A stretch of DNA of 49,461 nucleotides from Fibrobacter sp. (GTDB lineage Bacteria > Fibrobacterota > Fibrobacteria > Fibrobacterales > Fibrobacteraceae), in NCBI GenBank assembly GCA_024689485.1, contig JAILDK010000091.1:1-49461 (forward strand), read 5' to 3'. The position numbers and the translations under genes were made by a program. Below are positions 13,473-20,466 of this stretch, piece after piece. Positions within the stretch are counted from its first letter, which is position 1. Each line of letters starts with the position of its first letter. Below the pieces are notes generated by a model that worked only from the letters and a program-made list of their open reading frames with translations, was not told the DNA's origin and did no database searches.

Positions 13473-15464
13473 TTATTTGCGACGGAAGAGGACTCGATGC
13501 GAATCGGAAACATTCACTCGTCGTCCCATCGCGTTAAAGGTTTTCTTCGGAACAGAGACCCTCAAAGCATCGCTTCGAAGAACTTCCCCTCGGCGCATGA
13601 TCGCTGTACGGTCCTCCTCTTCCGCCGACAAAAATTCGATGTAATCAAGGTTCACATAGGAGCCTGTGATCAAGACCTTCAGAACGTGTTCGCCCGCACT
13701 CAATGCGACCGAGTCCGCCGACACGTCTTCATAAACGCTCCACATGTCTTCTGCAGTCTGCGGAAGGTCAAGTGTATCCGTCAAAAGTTCGCCGTCCAAA
13801 TACAGCTGAATCGAAGACGACGCGAGTCCCGTGGCGTAATGGACCTTCGGCAAATAGTTGGCGGTCTTCGAAACGTTCACCGTATATTCCATCCATTCCC
13901 CAGCAAGCGTATAGCCGACTGCATAACCGTCTTCTACTTCCACCACGTCAACACCGTCTTCGCGGTAAACGCCACCCTTATTTTCTGTTTCCTTGTCATA
14001 ATAAGACTGGGTTTGACCGCCGACGTCATAATTTTCCATTTCGATTTTCCCCGGAATCGTTTGTGCCGTCGCATTGTAAGGTTCTTGCGGAACGGTATCC
14101 AAAGCGGTAACCCCGACGAGCGTCGTAATGGATTCCTTATCGAGCGTCACCGAGAGCGTTCCGTTCAATGCCGAAATTTCTCCTTCATTCTGCACGTTCT
14201 TCGTTTCAGAAGTCACGTACTTTGTAAAAGAGGAGACATCACTGGAGCCCGAAAAAGAGAGGTTGATGGACTTGGTACTTCCATAATCGCGGTTGATCAA
14301 AACAACCACAACGCTGTCTCCCTTTTTATAGGCAGAGACATATACATCCGATTCCGGATTAGCGGTCGCTTCCACACGCACGGCCCCCGGGCGGATAAAG
14401 CGCGAGAACTGAGAAAGGACATAGCCGCGTTTAGAAGGCTTTCCGATTTCATCCGTCGAAATTGAAAGGCTTCCGCTGTAATCCTGTTCCATAATCAGTC
14501 CATAACAACGGCGAATATACCACCAGGTATACAGATTGAAGTTTCCAATCACAAGACCTCGGTGAATTTCATAACCGACATCCAAGGCGCGCACCGTATC
14601 TAGCGCCGCCGTTTGATCCTGGTCTCCCGTCACAATGAAACCACGCCACATGTTGCCGGAACCTTTACTTTCCGTATAATGTTCCGTCATCCAGCGTTCT
14701 TGATTCGTCGCCTTCTGATCGGCCAGATCATAGGCAAAATAACTGTCCGCCGTCGAAGCGGTACTTCCGTAGAAATGCGCGCCGATAATGTCCAAATTTT
14801 TTAGCGCATCCGCATCGTTCAAAATGTCATCGTAAAGGGATTTGCTGTAGGCGAACGATTCTGCCGAAATCACCTTTGTCCCATTGGCACGTAACTGGTC
14901 CGCATAGTTTTTTGTGAATTTATACAGATTGTCCGCCGTCCAACAAGTCCAAGAATCGCACCAGTCCGGTTCATTCTGAATGGAAATGGCGTACAACGGC
15001 GCACCTTGTTCTTTCATGTAAGCGGCAAAGTCATTCAAATGATTCACATAGGCTTGCCAGTTACTTTCTACGATTTGCGTCGAAGTGTAAGTCGTTCCCC
15101 AGCGGGTAAACGTATAAGCGGTCTGCAAACTACTAGGCGGTTTCCAAGGAGTTGCGTAAACAATCGCACCGTAAGACTGGGCAAGTTTGGCAGCCGTCAA
15201 TTCCTTTCCCCAGTCAGAACTGCTTTCGTTCACCGGAATTCGGAGAACCGTTAAACCGAGTTCTCCGTCCCCCGTACCGAATGCTACTTGAGCATCGCTG
15301 GACGAAAGACCGTTCCCCCCTTGCCATGTGTTGTGCACCATTCCGCCAAAGCCGCGAATCGTTTGATGTTCATCATCGAGGTCCACCGAAACATTCGAAG
15401 CCGTCGCAAAACTTGCGCACAACCCCAAGGTCATTCCTGCCAAAATTCTTTTCCGCAATCCCAT
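13473..15464 (-). CDS. Secreted GH30 (subfamily 8-like) glucuronoxylanase with CBM6
   Basis: A 663-aa secreted xylanase. A signal peptide (MGLRKRILAGMTLGLCASFATA) is followed by a GH30 catalytic domain (about 25-440). The acid/base Glu165 lies in SIQNEPDW and the nucleophile Glu261 in WMTEHY. WWYIRR at 314-319 matches the glucuronate-binding arginine region of GH30_8 enzymes, so cleavage of glucuronoxylan is likely. A CBM6 module (about 465-615, IEMENYDVGG to VNLDYIEFL) should bind xylan. The C-terminus is short and basic (RVSVPKKTFNAMGRRVNV), as reported for Fibrobacter secreted enzymes. AAGGAG precedes ATG 15464. It sits 19 bp downstream of the GH43 gene in one operon. The CBM6 is almost identical to that of the neighbour. 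Confidence 0.92.
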   Translation of the reverse strand: MGLRKRILAGMTLGLCASFATASNVSVDLDDEHQTIRGFGGMVHNTWQGGNGLSSSDAQVAFGTGDGELGLTVLRIPVNESSSDWGKELTAAKLAQSYGAIVYATPWKPPSSLQTAYTFTRWGTTYTSTQIVESNWQAYVNHLNDFAAYMKEQGAPLYAISIQNEPDWCDSWTCWTADNLYKFTKNYADQLRANGTKVISAESFAYSKSLYDDILNDADALKNLDIIGAHFYGSTASTADSYFAYDLADQKATNQERWMTEHYTESKGSGNMWRGFIVTGDQDQTAALDTVRALDVGYEIHRGLVIGNFNLYTWWYIRRCYGLIMEQDYSGSLSISTDEIGKPSKRGYVLSQFSRFIRPGAVRVEATANPESDVYVSAYKKGDSVVVVLINRDYGSTKSINLSFSGSSDVSSFTKYVTSETKNVQNEGEISALNGTLSVTLDKESITTLVGVTALDTVPQEPYNATAQTIPGKIEMENYDVGGQTQSYYDKETENKGGVYREDGVDVVEVEDGYAVGYTLAGEWMEYTVNVSKTANYLPKVHYATGLASSSIQLYLDGELLTDTLDLPQTAEDMWSVYEDVSADSVALSAGEHVLKVLITGSYVNLDYIEFLSAEEEDRTAIMRRGEVLRSDALRVSVPKKTFNAMGRRVNVSDSHRVLFRRK
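13621..14066 (-). repeat. CBM6-coding direct repeat, copy A
   Basis: Encodes the CBM6 of the GH30 protein. It aligns base for base over about 446 bp with 15708-16154 in the GH43 gene, with only scattered substitutions. Long stretches are identical, for example around GTTGGCGGTCTTCGAAACGT. Similarity stops sharply at both ends, indicating module duplication or gene conversion. Confidence 0.85.
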
Positions 15465-15483: not shown

Positions 15484-17643
15484 TTATTGAATCACTCGAA
15501 GCTTTTTAGAAGCTCCATTTGAGCGATTGCGAATTAAATAAACCCCATTCCGAACCAAAGACTGCTTGAGAATCTGTTCCACCGAAGAGAATCCTCGAGA
15601 GTTAACACTCTTCAAAAGATTTCCCTGCAAATCATAAACATCATAGACCGCATTCGAAGTTTTAACATTCAAATCCATACGATTGGAAATCTGAGTCAAA
15701 TCGCTATCCGCCGACAAAAATTCGATATAATCGAGGTTCACATAAGAGCCTGTGATCAAAACCTTCAAAACATGTTCGCCCGCACTCAATGCGACCGAGT
15801 CCGCCGACACGTCTTCATAAACGCTCCATGAGTCTTCTGCCGTCTGCGGAAGGTCAAGTGTATCGACCAAAAGTTCACCGTCTAAGTACAGCTGAATCGA
15901 AGACGATGCGAGTCCCGTTGCATAATGGACTTTCGGCAAATAGTTGGCGGTCTTCGAAACGTTCACCGTATATTCCGCCCATTCCCCAACAAGCGTATAG
16001 CCGATTGCATATCCCGAGTCATCAAGTTCCACGACATCGACGCCGTCTTCGCGGTAAACGCCACCTTCATTTTTGGAATCGCTATCACGGTAAGCGTTGT
16101 TGGCACCGCCCAAGTCGTAGTTTTCCATTTCGATTTTACCCGGGATCGTTTGCGCTTCGTTGTTGTAAGCGGTCTGCGGTTCCAAAGGTTTGGAGGCAAA
16201 TTCCCACTGCAAGATTCCCATCGTGGAATCTGCAGTTCCCTTGAAAACGAGGAAGACGTAATCGACAACGCCGCTCAGGTTTTCCACGGCACATTCCGTT
16301 TCCGCATAGGTTTGCCAGTTGGCGGTTTTCGGAAGTTCGCACGTTCCGGCGAGCGTTCCATCCACACTGCCGCTATGAATTTCAATCTGGTTTCCGCTTG
16401 CAACGCTCGCCGCTTTTACAATAAAGCTTGAAGCGCCACTGCCAAAATCCACGCCCGAAATGCGGAGCCAGGATTCTTTAGATGCCAGAGGCGTCAGCAC
16501 ATGCGAAATCGGCTGTCCTTTTACATAGTCGCTGCGGCTCCGCACATTGCGCTGTTTGGAGCTGGTGAGCGCTGGGTAAGCCTTATACGGGTTAAAGTTC
16601 TTGAGCTGTTTTGGACCTTCATTTGTGAAGGTGAGCGAGTTCATTTTTTCACCGCTGTAGGTGAATTCATCGATCGAAAGGCTGCGGTGATACGCAGGTT
16701 CCGGGTTTGCCTTGCCAAGGCTTGCCGGATGTTCGCTCGCCTGGGCTAGACGGCGATCGTGGTAAGCGACGTACCAGTGTCCTTGAAATTCGGCGATGCC
16801 GTGGTGATTGTTGTTGTACGCGTTGATGTTCTTGCCGTTGATGTTCGGATTTTCCATGAACGTTCCCATGTAGGTGTACGGTCCGGAAATCGAATTCGAA
16901 ATCGCGTAGCTAATGTGCTGTTGCTGATCGTTATAGGTCAGGTAATATTTGCCGTTGTACTTGTGAATGTAAGAGGCTTCAAAGGATTTTTGTGCGCCCT
17001 GAATCGCGACCTTCGAACTTACATTCAAAGCGACTTTGGAGCTTGTCAAATCGCTGAGTTTGTACAGGTCAAAGTTATTGCCGTAATCACGGGTACTGCT
17101 ACTTCCACCGCCATAAGTAATATAGGCGCTACCGTCGTCATCAATAAAGATGGACGGGTCAAAGCACCACGCGATTCCGTCACAGTCGACCGAACCTGCC
17201 GAGGTTCCCCAACCGCCGATCAAAAGTTTACCGACAGGATCCGTATAAGGCCCAGCGATATTCGAAGCGGTGAGCATTCCAATGCCGCTCGCTCCGTTCG
17301 GATAAACGATGTAGATTTGGCCATCCTTTGCCACGGCCCCAGGCGCCCAAGCGCCCGTCGCATAGCTCACTTCGCGACCTGCAGAAAAGATCATCCCGTA
17401 ATCGGTCCAGTTCTGCATATCCTCGCTGCTAAAAGCGTAATAAGATTTAATCGTATAACCGTCATCGCCGCTCTCGTCATCGGTATCCGCAATGATGTAG
17501 AACGTAGAATCCATGACGAACGCCGCTGGATCCGCAAGATAGTGATAGCTCACCAGCGGATTATCCGCAAATGCATTCGCGGCAAAAACCCCGAAACCCA
17601 GAGCCAAAGCAGAATGAAAAGCAGAAAACTTGGAAATTCCCAT
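15484..17643 (-). CDS. Secreted GH43 xylosidase/arabinofuranosidase with two CBM6-type modules
   Basis: A 719-aa secreted enzyme. The signal peptide ends near ANAFA. The GH43 five-bladed propeller (about 27-385) has the base Asp38 (LADPAAF), Asp162 (CFDPSIFIDDDGSAYITYGGG region) and the acid Glu222 (KSFEASYIHKYNGKYYLTYN region). A first carbohydrate-binding module (about 400-515) is CBM6-like. A second CBM6 (about 530-650) nearly duplicates the GH30 one. The C-terminus (VYDVYDLQGNLLKSV to GVYLIRN and KKLRVIQ) resembles a type A sorting domain of the type IX secretion system. Activity on arabinoxylan or xylo-oligosaccharides is expected; exact specificity is open. Start 17643 is fixed by GGAAAGGAG and the signal peptide. 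First gene of the operon. Confidence 0.9.
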   Translation of the reverse strand: MGISKFSAFHSALALGFGVFAANAFADNPLVSYHYLADPAAFVMDSTFYIIADTDDESGDDGYTIKSYYAFSSEDMQNWTDYGMIFSAGREVSYATGAWAPGAVAKDGQIYIVYPNGASGIGMLTASNIAGPYTDPVGKLLIGGWGTSAGSVDCDGIAWCFDPSIFIDDDGSAYITYGGGSSSTRDYGNNFDLYKLSDLTSSKVALNVSSKVAIQGAQKSFEASYIHKYNGKYYLTYNDQQQHISYAISNSISGPYTYMGTFMENPNINGKNINAYNNNHHGIAEFQGHWYVAYHDRRLAQASEHPASLGKANPEPAYHRSLSIDEFTYSGEKMNSLTFTNEGPKQLKNFNPYKAYPALTSSKQRNVRSRSDYVKGQPISHVLTPLASKESWLRISGVDFGSGASSFIVKAASVASGNQIEIHSGSVDGTLAGTCELPKTANWQTYAETECAVENLSGVVDYVFLVFKGTADSTMGILQWEFASKPLEPQTAYNNEAQTIPGKIEMENYDLGGANNAYRDSDSKNEGGVYREDGVDVVELDDSGYAIGYTLVGEWAEYTVNVSKTANYLPKVHYATGLASSSIQLYLDGELLVDTLDLPQTAEDSWSVYEDVSADSVALSAGEHVLKVLITGSYVNLDYIEFLSADSDLTQISNRMDLNVKTSNAVYDVYDLQGNLLKSVNSRGFSSVEQILKQSLVRNGVYLIRNRSNGASKKLRVIQ
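15708..16154 (-). repeat. CBM6-coding direct repeat, copy B
   Basis: Encodes the second CBM6 of the GH43 protein and pairs with 13621-14066. Differences are mostly silent or conservative (for example TDTLDLPQ versus VDTLDLPQ). The first half of the module (the YDLGGANN region) is more diverged than the second half. Confidence 0.85.
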
Positions 17644-17662: not shown

Positions 17663-17668
17663 AAAATA
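17663..17668 (-). promoter_or_regulatory. -10-like box of the GH43-GH30 operon
   Basis: The minus strand reads TATTTT, 19 nt before ATG 17643, with the AAGGAG ribosome site in between. No TTGACA-like -35 is seen 17 nt further up, which fits a promoter that needs an activator. Confidence 0.5.
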
Positions 17669-17711: not shown

Positions 17712-17726
17712 TGGACATATTGTCCA
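17712..17726. promoter_or_regulatory. Palindromic operator candidate upstream of the xylanase operon
   Basis: TGGACATATTGTCCA is a perfect 6-bp inverted repeat with a 3-nt spacer. It lies 43 nt upstream of the -10-like box of the GH43 gene, centred near -60, a typical activator position. A near-identical site (20452) precedes the TIGR02147 gene at the same distance. Confidence 0.6.
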
Positions 17727-17801: not shown

Positions 17802-18416
17802 TTATTTCAGTTTTTTCATCATCGGAATCAGACCGCCACCGATTGCGTTACCAATCGAAATCACGATCAGAGCCTTGAACATCGGAACGCTAAAATCATT
17901 CGCCATGCTAAAGTAGAACATGTCCGCAATGCAGTGTTCAAAGCCGCTCAGGATAAAGACCATCACCGGCAAGAACACAACCACCGCCTGGCCCACAATG
18001 TTCGGAACCGTCTTAAAACCGTCCGCCGCAATGAACATGAGCATTCCGCAGAAAATGCCGAGCACAAGCAAGCTCCAAGGACTATCCGCATCCTTGATCA
18101 CGCAAAGCGCATTCGCCTTGGCCGTCAAAGCATCCGCATAACGCGTCACCGACATCATCTTCGCAAAAAGGAATGTACCGATAAAGTTTCCGACCCAGAC
18201 AATTGCGAGAAAGCCCCAGTAAGAAGGCTTGTTGTTCACAAAATAGCCGACCTTGCCCGTAAACAGGTTAAAGCCAAAGTTCAGGATCGTAAAAAGTCCA
18301 AGACCGAAGAGGAAGGAACCGAGAAGTTTATTATCGCAAGAAAGGTAAACCGTTCCACCAAGACCAATGCAAAGACCGGAGTAAATCGATTTGACAAGAT
18401 TCGTTAGGTGATTCAT
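17802..18416 (-). CDS. Formate/nitrite transporter (FNT) family channel
   Basis: A 204-aa integral membrane protein with about six hydrophobic helices. FNT landmarks include FNLFTGKVGYF (corresponding to the LFTGN loop) and GFEHCIADMFYF, whose His is the central pore residue of FocA-type channels. It is shorter than the usual 260-280 aa because both termini are trimmed. Start 18416 is chosen since TATTTT ends 7 nt upstream and the longer frame to 18509 would overlap the lipoprotein gene. A mixed-acid fermenter could use it to export formate; nitrite or hydrosulfide are alternatives. Confidence 0.82.
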   Translation of the reverse strand: MNHLTNLVKSIYSGLCIGLGGTVYLSCDNKLLGSFLFGLGLFTILNFGFNLFTGKVGYFVNNKPSYWGFLAIVWVGNFIGTFLFAKMMSVTRYADALTAKANALCVIKDADSPWSLLVLGIFCGMLMFIAADGFKTVPNIVGQAVVVFLPVMVFILSGFEHCIADMFYFSMANDFSVPMFKALIVISIGNAIGGGLIPMMKKLK

Positions 18417-18423
18417 GGCGCCG

Positions 18424-18429
18424 AAAATA
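18424..18429 (-). promoter_or_regulatory. -10-like box, leaderless geometry (FNT gene)
   Basis: The minus strand reads TATTTT, then 7 nt (CGGCGCC), then ATG 18416. No ribosome-binding purines intervene. The upstream promoter sequence overlaps the 3' end of the lipoprotein gene. Confidence 0.5.
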
Positions 18430-18444
18430 GAAAAACTTTCGGCT

Positions 18445-19578
18445 TTATTCCCATTTGACACCATAAAATACGATATCGTCAATCCAAAATTCTCCGCCCG
18501 TTCCGCCAAAAATTGACAGATTCGTCACATGGTCCTTGACCGCATCCCAGCCGATATTTCCACCGATGCTGTCCACAGCCAAAAGCGTTTCAGGCGTTAG
18601 AACATAGCGGCTCCATTCGGACGTAATCTCAAAATGTTGCCAAGCCTTTCCGCTCGCATAGGCAGAGGTGCTGTCTACCAAGACATCGAACGAAAAACTG
18701 ATGTAGTTTTCTACATCCCCACGAATCCAAAAAGACACGGAATCAAGATCGCTCAAATCCATTTCCTTGCCAAACGAATGGCCCATCAGCGCCCAATTTT
18801 CGAGCGAATCATTTTCACAGCTAAAGTGCGCCGCGTAGCCTTCTCGGCCTTGGCCCGCTTCGGCCCATTCCAAAGAAGCCGTCGCATATTGCGAAAAGGA
18901 AACATACCAGGCGAGCGTGCTGTCTTCAAAATCGTCCACGAAATAAGCCAGCTTTACCGAATCCGTCATGCGCAAAGGTTCATTTTCCAGTTCAACCTTC
19001 ACCGAATCCGAAGCCAGAACCTGATTGTCCGAAACGAGAACCACTTCAAAATTCCCCTTCGGAAGCTGCATCGAGAAATATCCCTGCTCATCCACCAACT
19101 GCACATGGCGCGTTCCGCGCACCATCACGTAGGCAGAATACGCCGTCGTTTCTACATGCCCCGAAAGCACACCCGGTTCATCCACTTCGACCGCCACAGG
19201 AATGCTCGTATCCGGAAGCGCCGCGGGAATCGAAAGCTGCACGGCGCCAAGGAGCATCGAATCGTCCGAAAGATCCTCTTGCGCTTCCACCATGTAATCG
19301 CCCGCCGAAAGGGACTTCAAGCGCACAACGCCCACGCTATCCGCTTCATAAAAGTCCCCCGCGTATCCCAGCATGGAATTTTGGAATTCGATAATCGCAT
19401 CTTTTTCGCGAATCAGCACAACGCTATGCGCGGCCGGAGTCCCGTCCACACGCGTCACGACAATCGTCGCCACGGAGTTCTCCGTTTCAAAGGTAGAACC
19501 CGCCGTATTCTTTTCCGAGCAAGCCGTCAAGACACCACTCAAAACGACCGCCGCACCCATCATCCAAATCCGCTTCAT
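18445..19578 (-). CDS. Lipoprotein with C-terminal carbohydrate-binding-like domain
   Basis: A 377-aa lipoprotein: MKRIWMMGAAVVLSGVLTAC gives lipobox LTAC with Cys20. The middle part (about 35-200) looks like two or three Ig/carboxypeptidase-regulatory-like beta domains (ATIVVTRVDGTPAAHSVVLI). The C-terminal ~165 residues (DDFEDSTLAWYVSFSQ to EFWIDDIVFYGVKW) have the pattern of a galactose-binding jelly roll close to CBM11-type domains. Its ATG overlaps the TGA of the TIGR02147 gene as ATGA with GGTGAGG just upstream, so the two are translationally coupled. A surface polysaccharide sensor or binding role is inferred. Confidence 0.75.
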   Translation of the reverse strand: MKRIWMMGAAVVLSGVLTACSEKNTAGSTFETENSVATIVVTRVDGTPAAHSVVLIREKDAIIEFQNSMLGYAGDFYEADSVGVVRLKSLSAGDYMVEAQEDLSDDSMLLGAVQLSIPAALPDTSIPVAVEVDEPGVLSGHVETTAYSAYVMVRGTRHVQLVDEQGYFSMQLPKGNFEVVLVSDNQVLASDSVKVELENEPLRMTDSVKLAYFVDDFEDSTLAWYVSFSQYATASLEWAEAGQGREGYAAHFSCENDSLENWALMGHSFGKEMDLSDLDSVSFWIRGDVENYISFSFDVLVDSTSAYASGKAWQHFEITSEWSRYVLTPETLLAVDSIGGNIGWDAVKDHVTNLSIFGGTGGEFWIDDIVFYGVKWE

Positions 19579-20396
19579 TTTTTCCTCACCCGTGCAATCG
19601 GATAAAAGGCCATCGAAAGTTGCATGACCCGATCCGGATGTTCTACTGAATCTACTCTTTTTTGCACGAGTCGGCGAAATTCCCTTGCCATATCGCCGAG
19701 GTCTTCAAAAGCTTCCTTGTCCACGGAAAGCGTGAGCGTGGAAATATTGCGTTCTTCTACCGGAATGTTTTCCAGGGCATCGCTCGCCAGCTGAAGCGCC
19801 TGTTTTTGGAATTTTCGCACCGCTTTAGCCTTTTCCGGGCCTCCCGCGGTCAAATGCGCGTCGGCAAGCGCCAGCTTTCCCGATGCGAGCTTTTTCACCA
19901 GTCCCGCATCCTTCAAAATTTCGATTGCCTCTTGGGCCTGCGCCTCCGTAATCGGCGGGCACATATCCTTGGCGATCTGCTTCGGATTCACCACGCCACC
20001 GCTCAATTCGAGATAAGCGCGCACCGCTGGAATCCACCAGTTTTCAAGCATCTTCAATTCCGCCGCCTGCAGGCTGTGGCGTTCCACATCGCGAAGGGCT
20101 ATCGCCTTCGCCATCAGCTCTTCTTTCTGCGCCACATCCTTCGTGACAGAAGCCGCGTAAAGCAAGTCAAAGTATTCCGCCGAACGTCCCACAACCCCGA
20201 GCATTTCCTTTGCCTTCTGAAGGGCATGCGCGGGCAGGTGATGCTTCTTTTGCAGCACGCGGAATAAATAGCTCGAATCCAGCCCGAGCTTTTCTCCCAT
20301 CATCCTATACGAATAAAGCGGCATCTCTTTTTTGCGCCGTTCATAGTAGGATTTCAACAGGTCGCGGTAATCCGCTGTGTCCAAAAACAGATTCAT
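19575..20396 (-). CDS. TIGR02147 family protein (HTH + DUF4423), putative regulator
   Basis: A 273-aa soluble protein of the TIGR02147 family, first defined as a paralogous family in Fibrobacter succinogenes. The N-terminus (about 5-60), DYRDLLKSYYERRK then MMGEKLGLDSSYLFRVLQKK, has the layout of a helix-turn-helix domain. The rest matches the DUF4423 region, including ENWWIPAVRAYLELSGG and ending LSMAFYPIARVRKK. DNA binding is thus plausible but not demonstrated. It is the first gene of a two-gene operon with the lipoprotein (ATGA overlap). TATTTT ends 7 nt before ATG 20396, and a palindrome matching one before the xylanase operon lies 56 nt upstream. Confidence 0.82.
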   Translation of the reverse strand: MNLFLDTADYRDLLKSYYERRKKEMPLYSYRMMGEKLGLDSSYLFRVLQKKHHLPAHALQKAKEMLGVVGRSAEYFDLLYAASVTKDVAQKEELMAKAIALRDVERHSLQAAELKMLENWWIPAVRAYLELSGGVVNPKQIAKDMCPPITEAQAQEAIEILKDAGLVKKLASGKLALADAHLTAGGPEKAKAVRKFQKQALQLASDALENIPVEERNISTLTLSVDKEAFEDLGDMAREFRRLVQKRVDSVEHPDRVMQLSMAFYPIARVRKK

Positions 20397-20403
20397 CCCA
20401 TTT

Positions 20404-20409
20404 AAAATA
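20404..20409 (-). promoter_or_regulatory. -10-like box, leaderless geometry (TIGR02147 gene)
   Basis: The minus strand reads TATTTT, 7 nt (AAATGGG), then ATG 20396. No convincing -35 hexamer at 16-18 nt upstream, as for the GH43 promoter. Confidence 0.5.
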
Positions 20410-20451: not shown

Positions 20452-20466
20452 TGGACTTTTTGTCCA
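20452..20466. promoter_or_regulatory. Palindromic operator candidate upstream of the TIGR02147 operon
   Basis: TGGACTTTTTGTCCA is a 5-bp inverted repeat with a 5-nt spacer, matching the 17712 site at 13 of 15 positions, with flanking CAAA shared as well. It lies 42 nt upstream of the -10-like box. Confidence 0.6.

Follow-up and report, generated by a model that had tools for sequence, protein, structure and literature searches.

The window analysed here, a stretch of 49,461 nucleotides from Fibrobacter sp., encodes a TIGR02147 regulator that is quite likely dedicated to activating a hemicellulase regulon, its own operon included; the lipoprotein encoded next to it, which has a CBM11 fold, would be its likely surface sensor. 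This reading is built on features that were computed directly, namely the pairing of the two genes, a dyad at a fixed spacing from the promoter, the genes lying behind that dyad, an N-terminal box restricted to the paired lipoproteins and the predicted folds of both proteins. The operator, the regulon and the common box are new relative to the original prediction, which was a first reading from the sequence. Among the fibre degraders of herbivore guts, Fibrobacter is one of the foremost; the analysis names a regulator family, its predicted DNA sites, a hemicellulase regulon and a partner protein as probable sensor, and provides a first (predicted) function for the TIGR02147 family. Together, the pair and the dyad before xylan-degrading genes point to a long-missing switch for plant-fibre digestion.

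The gene pair and its products

The lipoprotein start and the regulator stop share positions 19575-19578 as ATGA, and both ORFs are where the original prediction had placed them (Table 1); fixed stoichiometry, which it had also proposed, does not follow from such an overlap by itself. Its expectation of conserved adjacency was borne out by a tally of 252 TIGR02147 ORFs, 240 of which are followed by a lipoprotein gene. Ten of these ORFs duplicate another entry over their last 200 residues (in four cases because the record is the same), and the count is 230 of 242 once identical ORFs are counted a single time; across nine genomes it is 93/102. The overlap is exactly 4 nt in 118 of the 240 pairs, with an overlap of any length in 177. 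When the window and 13 stretches of genome G017 were scored in this way, 14 of their 234 other genes had a lipoprotein gene after them, several of these 14 calls being doubtful. The pairing is thus general and well above chance. The family itself is abundant, one genome (G111) yielding up to 88 candidates at first look, of which 19 were scored; it is missing from genus g20 of family f8 (0 of 8 genomes) and from g17 of f6 (0 of 2). The formate/nitrite-transporter gene that follows the lipoprotein gene is not thought to be part of the unit; it is also present in orthologue loci L174 and L175 (87% identity), with no match in L176, L178, L212, L223 or the G017 stretches L085 and L284.

Table 1. 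Features of the window, with positions counted from its first letter
Feature	Position	Strand	Basis
TIGR02147/DUF4423 regulator, 273 aa	19575..20396	minus	orthologue loci L174-L229 and L243
Predicted N-terminal HTH domain (residues 7-92)	20121..20378	minus	AlphaFold2, block pLDDT 86-96 over residues 11-90
Predicted winged-helix segment in DUF4423 (residues 103-190)	19827..20090	minus	model: helix-helix-strand-strand
Lipoprotein, 377 aa	18445..19578	minus	4-nt overlap with regulator stop; 41-member alignment A4
Cysteine to be lipidated (residue 20)	19519..19521	minus	lipobox LTAC; Cys invariant in A4
Conserved N-terminal box AGSTFETENSVA (residues 26-37)	19468..19503	minus	ETEN identical in 53/53 sequences
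Beta-sandwich segment(s), transthyretin/CarboxypepD_reg type (residues 38-205)	18964..19467	minus	CarboxypepD_reg; strands in model
CBM11-fold C-terminal domain (about residues 211-374)	18457..18948	minus	Foldseek to CtCBM11
Operator 1, dyad TGGACAAAAAGTCCA, before regulator	20452..20466	minus	conserved in 57/57 loci scanned; composite pattern
-10-like TATTTT	20404..20409	minus	42 nt downstream of operator 1; information profile
Formate/nitrite-transporter gene, between lipoprotein and GH43	17802..18431	minus	Pfam PF01226, E 1.4e-30
Operator 2, dyad TGGACAATATGTCCA, before GH43	17712..17726	minus	composite pattern
-10-like TATTTT	17663..17668	minus	43 nt downstream of operator 2
Secreted GH43-CBM6-CBM35 enzyme, predicted target	15484..17643	minus	Pfam GH43 E 4.8e-32, CBM6 5.2e-34
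Secreted GH30-like-CBM6 enzyme, next after GH43	13473..15464	minus	Pfam CBM6 9.8e-16; GH30C 2.1e-4, just below cut-off

The TIGR02147 assignment is upheld by NCBIfam (E 2.2e-56, 191.3 bits against a curated cut-off of 50, positions 8-270 of 272), and Pfam recovers DUF4423 (PF14394; E 3.4e-27, 95.7 bits against a gathering cut-off of 30). No Pfam HTH family matches the regulator sequence at E<=1; the HTH anticipated for the predicted structure is present in the model at residues 7-92, where it adopts the lambda-repressor-like (XRE) fold and finds its best matches in HigA and phage-repressor HTH domains. Comparisons with HigA antitoxins give VIA Z values of 8.0-8.3 over 74-76 residues (rmsd 2.6-2.8) and that with the P22 c2 repressor a Z of 6.8, all middling for a helical domain. 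The segment that follows, residues 103-190, resembles ArsR/MarR-type proteins weakly (VIA Z about 6), and the C-terminal third is poorly predicted. Foldseek with the regulator model returned no match at E<=0.001, a sequence search for solved relatives gave nothing beyond three designed proteins that match weakly (E 0.11-0.54), and no relatives were found in phages with the window regulator as query or in plasmids with the L246 regulator.

The lipoprotein has a lipoprotein-type signal peptide with LTAC at residues 17-20, as called by a script rule and not by a trained predictor, its cysteine being kept in 41 aligned relatives, and was modelled with a mean pLDDT of 88.2. CarboxypepD_reg is matched in 41/41 members of the alignment at E<=0.1, the window protein alone standing at 0.027, below the cut-off. 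The predicted beta sandwich is found in the model as a CBM11 fold: Foldseek aligns the C-terminus with 6r3m and 1v0a (E 4.0e-8 and 4.9e-8, TM by target 0.73 and 0.75). The description of this region as CBM11-like therefore stands for the fold, although Pfam reports no CBM in the window protein at E<=1. Two of the 41 relatives match CBM_4_9 at E<=0.1, and several paired lipoproteins carry lectin-like C-terminal domains (CBM_4_9, Laminin_G_3).

The operator dyad and the genes behind it

A 15-bp dyad, TGGACAAnnTGTCCA, lies before the regulator, 42-44 nt upstream of a TAnnTT -10-like box. The combination of this dyad with a TAnnTT at 40-46 nt precedes the regulator in 57/57 loci scanned (two read by eye), with no strong -35-type conservation between the two elements. 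In the same loci it stands before 74 glycoside-hydrolase-like genes, comprising 64 GH43, 8 GH30 and 2 GH10 by signature peptide, with three sites elsewhere; 6/57 loci have no enzyme site within the flank scanned. Because the regulator sites went into the matrix, only the enzyme sites and the window constitute an independent test; 20 column-permuted matrices yield 0-1 sites each. The promoters of other TIGR02147 genes (n=129) score at most 11.1, against 18.8-24.7 for the orthologues, and the dyad is missing at the corresponding place in the nearest paralogous clade. The G017 orthologue of the window gene is internally deleted with its dyad still there, and a second copy in this genome is intact.

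The exact composite pattern occurs at exactly three sites in the window's own genome (control 0), before the regulator operon, the nearby GH43-CBM6 gene and a GH10-CBM6 xylanase gene. The GH30-like-CBM6 gene has no dyad of its own within the window and is possibly in one unit with GH43. A degenerate dyad gave 43 sites in six Fibrobacteraceae genomes against one in the control. Thirty of the sites were examined: the regulator follows 4 of them and a secreted protein 24, while 2 have no gene, and 23 of the 24 secreted proteins are glycoside hydrolases by Pfam. Within the genus, the exact composite pattern accompanies a confirmed enzyme gene only in G000; F. intestinalis (G010) has the regulator site, a single site is present in each of G025 and G028, G022 has none, and no gene was found behind the second composite site of G017.

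In two other TIGR02147 clades the dyad is a different one and is 41-42 nt from TAnnTT in 5/5 and 8/8 cases, as read from the same sequences in which it was counted; in L060, a relative outside the counted eight that was missed by the name pattern, the third dyad is at 46 nt. The second dyad, TTGTAANNNNTTACAA, has 11 sites in six genomes, five of them before its own regulator. Two further sites, in two genomes, precede GH11 xylanases, and one more is the reverse reading of one of these. An extra G017 site (L294) falls between the ends of two converging genes and a G010 site (L291) has only a doubtful ORF behind it; both are probably not promoters. This dyad is also found before a thioredoxin-like lipoprotein gene (L293), for which we have no explanation. 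GTTGTAANNNNTTACAAC is the dyad of another TIGR02147 clade.

From these patterns, the TIGR02147 protein of the window very likely binds TGGACAAnnTGTCCA, the centre of which lies some 50 nt before the -10-like box, and it probably activates transcription. It would thereby turn on the operon that encodes it and also several secreted hemicellulases (GH43, GH30 and GH10), to which GH141, GH95, GH2, alpha-galactosidase and GH5 would be added in other Fibrobacteraceae.

The lipoprotein box and the source of the signal

Shortly past the cysteine to be lipidated, the paired lipoproteins have a short box in common, AG-x-[ST]-x-ET-x-N, with a mean conservation of 0.86 against 0.49 for the signal peptide. 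A box model trained on paired sequences made 41 matches in four whole genomes, 41/41 of which lie directly after a TIGR02147 stop codon, and recovers 40/68 of the paired lipoproteins in those genomes. A loose form of the motif is present in 101/150 paired lipoproteins and 3/54 crude calls of unpaired ones. A first box score, which separated poorly (232/238 real against 178/240 shuffled), was kept out of the evidence. We rejected the box as a DNA or RNA element, since its synonymous codons are as variable as those of the later domains (0.45 against 0.44-0.46). Mutual information between box and regulator is 0.393 against 0.230 under full permutation, which amounts to a clade-level association; within-clade permutations give 0.389 +- 0.002 (for the top ten, 0.226 against 0.218 +- 0.007), so that covariation beyond the clade is slight or absent, and a control region behaves likewise (0.534 against 0.527 +- 0.003).

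The co-translated lipoprotein would be the surface glycan-binding protein of the operon, its CBM11-fold domain meeting polysaccharide outside the cell, and the box near the lipid anchor may be the part through which the regulator gets the signal. As a candidate it is the most likely sensor, and that it is the regulator's sensor we hold tentatively, at chances approaching even. The co-regulated sensing originally proposed fits the predicted hemicellulase regulon.

It is possible, if on balance doubtful, that the regulator controls the hemicellulase regulon while sensing an intracellular sugar or metabolite via DUF4423, with the lipoprotein as a mere first target, a surface binder of the kind found in Bacteroidota loci, without signalling. 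One-component HTH regulators with ligand domains are common, the same regulon evidence applies, and covariation of box and regulator beyond the clade level is not clear. Intracellular sensing leaves unexplained, however, why lipoprotein genes with the same box sit beside regulators of many clades and why the box model has no matches on unpaired genes. Moreover, in the part of the literature covered, F. succinogenes reportedly does not use the products of its endo-hemicellulases (PMC3079729), making an internal xylo-sugar signal less likely there.

Two further alternatives concern the box. The regulator might read its own prelipoprotein in the cytoplasm, binding the box before export, and the pair would then report on export or feed back on its own synthesis rather than respond to polysaccharide. 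Only as a precursor does the lipoprotein share the regulator's compartment, and the frequent 4-nt overlap (118/240) and a box conserved as a peptide and tied to the pair would suit this; yet neither covariation nor structure gives evidence of contact, and the lectin-like C-terminal domains (CBM_4_9, Laminin_G_3, the CBM11 fold) would not be needed, so we regard it as unlikely. We give slightly less weight still to a box that has nothing to do with the regulator and serves to sort Fibrobacter lipoproteins in general to the outer membrane or the surface. Its place right after the lipid cysteine is where such signals sit, but all 41 box-model matches are paired although these genomes hold other lipoproteins (36 were called in the window and 13 stretches, paired ones included).

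It is improbable that the dyad belongs to another, unlinked hemicellulase regulator with TIGR02147 as merely one of its targets. Binding by TIGR02147 is a prediction, and the part of the S85 genome paper covered proposes two metal-dependent response regulators as controllers of a hemicellulase cluster, Fisuc_1762-1804 (PMC3079729); the dyad nevertheless precedes this TIGR02147 clade in every locus scanned and none of the 129 other TIGR02147 genes, and two other clades each have a dyad of their own, spaced almost identically. Least of all do we expect a pheromone-like peptide from the lipoprotein signal sequence to be sensed, as pheromones are by PrgX and TraA of enterococci: PrgX and PlcR are among the structure matches, over the HTH, but the signal peptide is less conserved than the box and is the least associated with regulator clades (0.351 against 0.314 permuted).

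Beyond the window, TIGR02147-lipoprotein pairs could conceivably form a new modular route of signalling from surface to promoter, each pair having a private HTH and dyad and a private outer domain, with the coupling through DUF4423 and the box shared; we put this forward as a somewhat doubtful generalisation. The outer domain would often be lectin-like, a genome would hold from a few to dozens of pairs, and these may replace the two-component and sigma/anti-sigma control of enzymes in other fibre degraders.

Relation to known systems

In the part of the S85 genome paper covered, the transcriptional control of cellulases is an unanswered question and only a handful of recognisable regulators lie near them (PMC3079729). 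Fibrobacter proteomics, as far as that source was covered, compared cellulose with glucose, not xylan, and the GH30 xylanase-like protein FSU_2795 went down in this comparison (PMC6851124). TIGR02147 was absent from the portion of the full-text literature searched, where DUF4423 occurs only as a name in a Bdellovibrio table; among the literature matches listed, which cover few subscription papers, there is no report of the hemicellulase regulon or of the TIGR02147-lipoprotein pairing.

The C-terminal domain of the window lipoprotein shares its fold with Clostridium thermocellum CBM11 (6r3m, 1v0a) over about 180 aligned columns at 18-19% identity. The regulator resembles RRNPP regulators such as PrgX and PlcR in its XRE-type N-terminal HTH and a protein length of about 280 aa; the match, from a second look at the structures, covers the HTH only, and a TPR-like peptide-binding part was not recognised in the regulator model, the C-terminus of which is of low confidence. 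The polysaccharide utilisation loci of Bacteroidota combine SusC/SusD with hybrid two-component, ECF or SusR regulators. The system described here is like them in having a linked regulator, a surface glycan-binding lipoprotein and secreted hydrolases under one predicted control, whereas signalling runs through the membrane or sigma factors there and would run through a cytosolic HTH-DUF4423 protein here.

Within Fibrobacter, two paired lipoproteins of G033 carry the Fib_succ_major domain (TIGR02145, PF09603) in place of the CBM11 fold seen on the window lipoprotein, and thus tie together two paralogous families of the genus. The window regulator is itself a full-length member of the TIGR02147 (Fsuc_second)/DUF4423 family with the same two halves, HTH and DUF4423; to library entries that name no function, the present analysis adds a predicted operator, regulon and partner.

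Pairing of TIGR02147 regulators with lipoproteins

The regulator and lipoprotein genes of the window share an ATGA overlap, as the original prediction had it, and the recurrence of such adjacency, which it proposed to check, is borne out. We tallied stretches around TIGR02147 genes from sampled genomes (G handles, contigs or positions after the colon; often incomplete) and 73 loci of named genomes (L handles), some of the G genomes being identical to named genomes behind the L loci. A lipoprotein gene comes next in 240 of 252 TIGR02147 ORFs, against 14 of 234 other genes under the same rule. Lipoboxes were called by a scripted rule, those missed by its first form being re-read ahead of the count; the 240 include two doubtful rows, L160 (72 aa at +279 nt) and L169 (Cys accepted under a lax rule). 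Over their final 200 residues ten ORFs duplicate another row, among them L176, L223, L224 and L228, which are the same records as stretches of G010, G004 and G003; counting duplicates once gives 230/242 paired. In nine genomes with 102 of 103 matches covered (one broken G002 gene left out), 93/102 are paired. Of the 240 pairs, 118 overlap by exactly 4 nt and 177 to some extent, and in 236 the lipoprotein start is within 31 nt. The 12 unpaired genes comprise six from one clade with alike N-termini (G002:C103, G003:C17, G006:C136, G010:C57, G017:501889 and G033:1011233), two fragments, one contig end, G010:C32, G017:1723422 and L148.

Features of the window and the third operator site of the source genome
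Feature	Position	Strand	Context	Basis
TIGR02147/DUF4423 regulator, 273 aa	window 19575-20396	minus		family matches
Lipoprotein, 377 aa	window 18445-19578	minus		sequence
Operator 1	window 20452-20466		before regulator	composite pattern
Operator 2	window 17712-17726		before GH43-CBM6-CBM35 gene	composite pattern
Third site	contig C88		before secreted GH10-CBM6 xylanase	composite pattern

The source genome (G000; 2.5 Mb, 132 contigs) has 13 TIGR02147 matches, and the pair is present also in other families of the phylum. The closest relatives of the window regulator in the named collection come from gut Fibrobacter, including F. intestinalis ATCC 43854 (82% identity). At least one TIGR02147 match was found in 110 of 120 genomes drawn from the phylum; the family is absent from all eight g20 (family f8) and both g17 (family f6) genomes of the draw, natural losses where a missing relay partner could be looked for. 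The pairing may extend beyond Fibrobacterota, since a proteobacterial MAG (L246, 4968-6508) encodes a DUF4423 regulator (Pfam) and, as the next gene at -4, a candidate lipoprotein whose start, CFVDHTGTAVGNP, is similar. A formate/nitrite-transporter gene (window 17802-18431) lies between the lipoprotein and GH43 genes. L174 and L175 have it too (87%), and the L176, L178, L212, L223 and G017 stretches gave no match, so it seems to have been inserted later, in the closest species.

A conserved box on variable lipoproteins

The paired lipoproteins have in common a box a few residues past the lipidated Cys, its commonest form being AG-x-[ST]-x-E-T-x-N. A 31-position model, trained on 36 sequences out of 43 selected and searched against four whole genomes (G000, G017, G033 and G004; E<=1), gave 41 matches, all 41 starting 42-156 nt past the stop codon of a same-strand TIGR02147 gene. 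It recovers 40 of the 68 paired lipoproteins of these genomes, plus G000:C48, the gene left unpaired by a contig end. The G004 member of the mostly unpaired clade has a lipoprotein 150 nt further on, without a clear box. A looser motif occurs in 101 of 150 nonredundant paired sequences (200 shuffles: mean 13.5, maximum 25) and in 3 of 54 crude unpaired lipoprotein calls. The ETEN of the box is invariant in 53 aligned sequences while its synonymous codons vary as much as elsewhere in the gene, so the constraint acts at the peptide level. Outside the box the lipoprotein evolves faster than the regulator in the orthologue alignments; most lipoprotein orthologues are 37-46% identical to the window protein versus 71-84% for most of their regulators (alignments of 43 and 41 sequences, window included, out of 73 loci). 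Very short box-bearing lipoproteins occur in L009 (2349-2588; 79 aa) and L081 (about 110 aa), as if reduced to hardly more than signal peptide and box.

The structure models agree with the HTH, the beta sandwich and the CBM11-like C-terminus that had been anticipated. The regulator model (mean pLDDT 76.8, pTM 0.48) has a confident N-terminal HTH, best matched by HigA antitoxins (Z 8.3) and P22 c2 (Z 6.8), a winged-helix-like middle (Z about 6 to ArsR/MarR-type proteins) and a C-terminus that is uncertain. In the lipoprotein model (mean pLDDT 88.2), a low-confidence start covering the greater part of the box is followed by transthyretin-type sandwiches, and the C-terminal domain has a CBM11 fold. 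A domain scan of ten other paired lipoproteins found a C-terminal CBM_4_9 in L002 and Laminin_G_3 in L004 and L008, CarboxypepD_reg-type matches only in L001, L003, L010 and L013, and no match in L122. The remaining two of the ten, from G033 (L117, L118), carry Fib_succ_major, tying TIGR02147 to another large paralogous Fibrobacter family.

Predicted operators and hemicellulase regulon

The 15-bp dyad upstream of the regulator is kept in orthologue loci. A matrix from 56 regulator sites was scanned over the window and the orthologue loci L174-L229 (617 kb), with TAnnTT required 40-46 nt downstream as a -10 box, a sequence pattern and not a mapped promoter. Of the 134 sites, 57 precede regulators (the kind of site from which the matrix was built; 55 by signature, L204 and L214 by eye), 64 GH43-like, eight GH30-like and two GH10-like genes, and three others; 20 column-permuted matrices gave 0 or 1 site apiece. 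The GH labels derive from signature peptides. With Pfam, the L174, L182 and window genes are confirmed as GH43 and that of L212 as GH10, the L183 gene has a GH30C match at the cut-off, and the partial L177 gene has no match. An enzyme site lies within the examined flank in 51 of the 57 loci. Across 83 nonredundant window-clade promoters, strong conservation is seen at the dyad, the flank downstream of it and the -10; the interval from dyad to -10 shows no -35 hexamer and nothing beyond a weakly conserved T-rich stretch. Such an arrangement, with no -35 and the centre of the dyad about 50 nt above the -10, has the appearance of an activator site, and for this reason the regulator is probably an activator. 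In the one-contig genome G017, the orthologue of the window regulator (L085 9690-10079; G017:C1 near 1354689) has lost roughly 300 nt or more from its interior, with dyad and lipoprotein still present; a second copy at G017:676164 has a full-length reading frame.

Genome-wide, the exact composite pattern gives three sites in the source genome (reversed control, 0), with 42-43 nt from dyad to TATTTT at each. Applied to the genus's five further genomes, it picks up chiefly the regulator (one site in G010, the regulator; G025 one; G028 one; G022 none; G017 two, no gene being detected behind the second), and a GH43 site is present in two close species (L174, L175). A degenerate dyad with a fixed 43-nt spacer, run on G033, G026, G029, G049, G004 and G003, gave 43 sites versus one in the control. 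In genus g2 (four genomes), 34 of 38 sites share the regulator's contig, 33 of them inside 41-73 kb stretches holding the regulator. Thirty of the 43 were examined: four lie ahead of the regulator, 24 lie ahead of a gene for a secreted protein, and two have no gene behind them. By Pfam, 23 of the 24 secreted proteins are glycoside hydrolases (GH43 8, GH10 3, alpha-galactosidase 3, GH141 3, GH5 2, GH95 2, GH2 2) and one has a CarboxypepD_reg domain only.

The window-clade dyad was not found in the promoters of 129 other TIGR02147 genes (best score 11.1 versus 18.8-24.7 for orthologues), nor at the corresponding place in the nearest paralogous clade. Each of two other clades has a dyad of its own there, GTTGTAANNNNTTACAAC in 5/5 and GKTTACNNNNGTAAAC in 8/8 (at most two mismatches), 41-42 nt from TAnnTT, each consensus being read from the sequences counted; shuffled upstreams gave 0 and 4 of 136, against 7 and 11 for the real upstream regions of the full set of paralogues. 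L060, a further relative of the GKTTACNNNNGTAAAC clade, has the dyad at 46 nt. In two genomes of the genus, the GTTGTAANNNNTTACAAC dyad also precedes GH11-CBM6 xylanases; its three further sites are not clear promoters. Upstreams of L001-type (YYNYRKYL) and L021-type (EYLNYR) regulators have repeated GTGTTC(C/T)C and TGTGGAC elements and no single dyad.

A possible route from hemicellulose to the operon

These results, all from sequence and predicted structure, favour a mechanism in which the regulator would be synthesised along with its own lipoprotein, which would reach the envelope and contact hemicellulose; this contact, via a route tied to the box, would enable the regulator to activate its own operon and the enzyme genes. 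The F. succinogenes S85 genome paper reports that this species cannot use the products of its own endo-hemicellulases and lacks the genes for their uptake and metabolism (PMC3079729), which makes an extracellular signal more plausible in that species than a xylo-sugar inside the cell. In S85 grown on cellulose, GH43 and GH10 enzymes of the gene range FSU_2263 to FSU_2294, which we infer to be the same hemicellulase cluster, are reported to be up 1.35- to 1.95-fold, one GH27 and one GH2 enzyme of the range likewise raised, and a GH30 xylanase-like protein outside it, FSU_2795, lowered (PMC6851124, Table 1). The S85 genome paper puts forward two metal-dependent response regulators as controlling such a cluster (PMC3079729).
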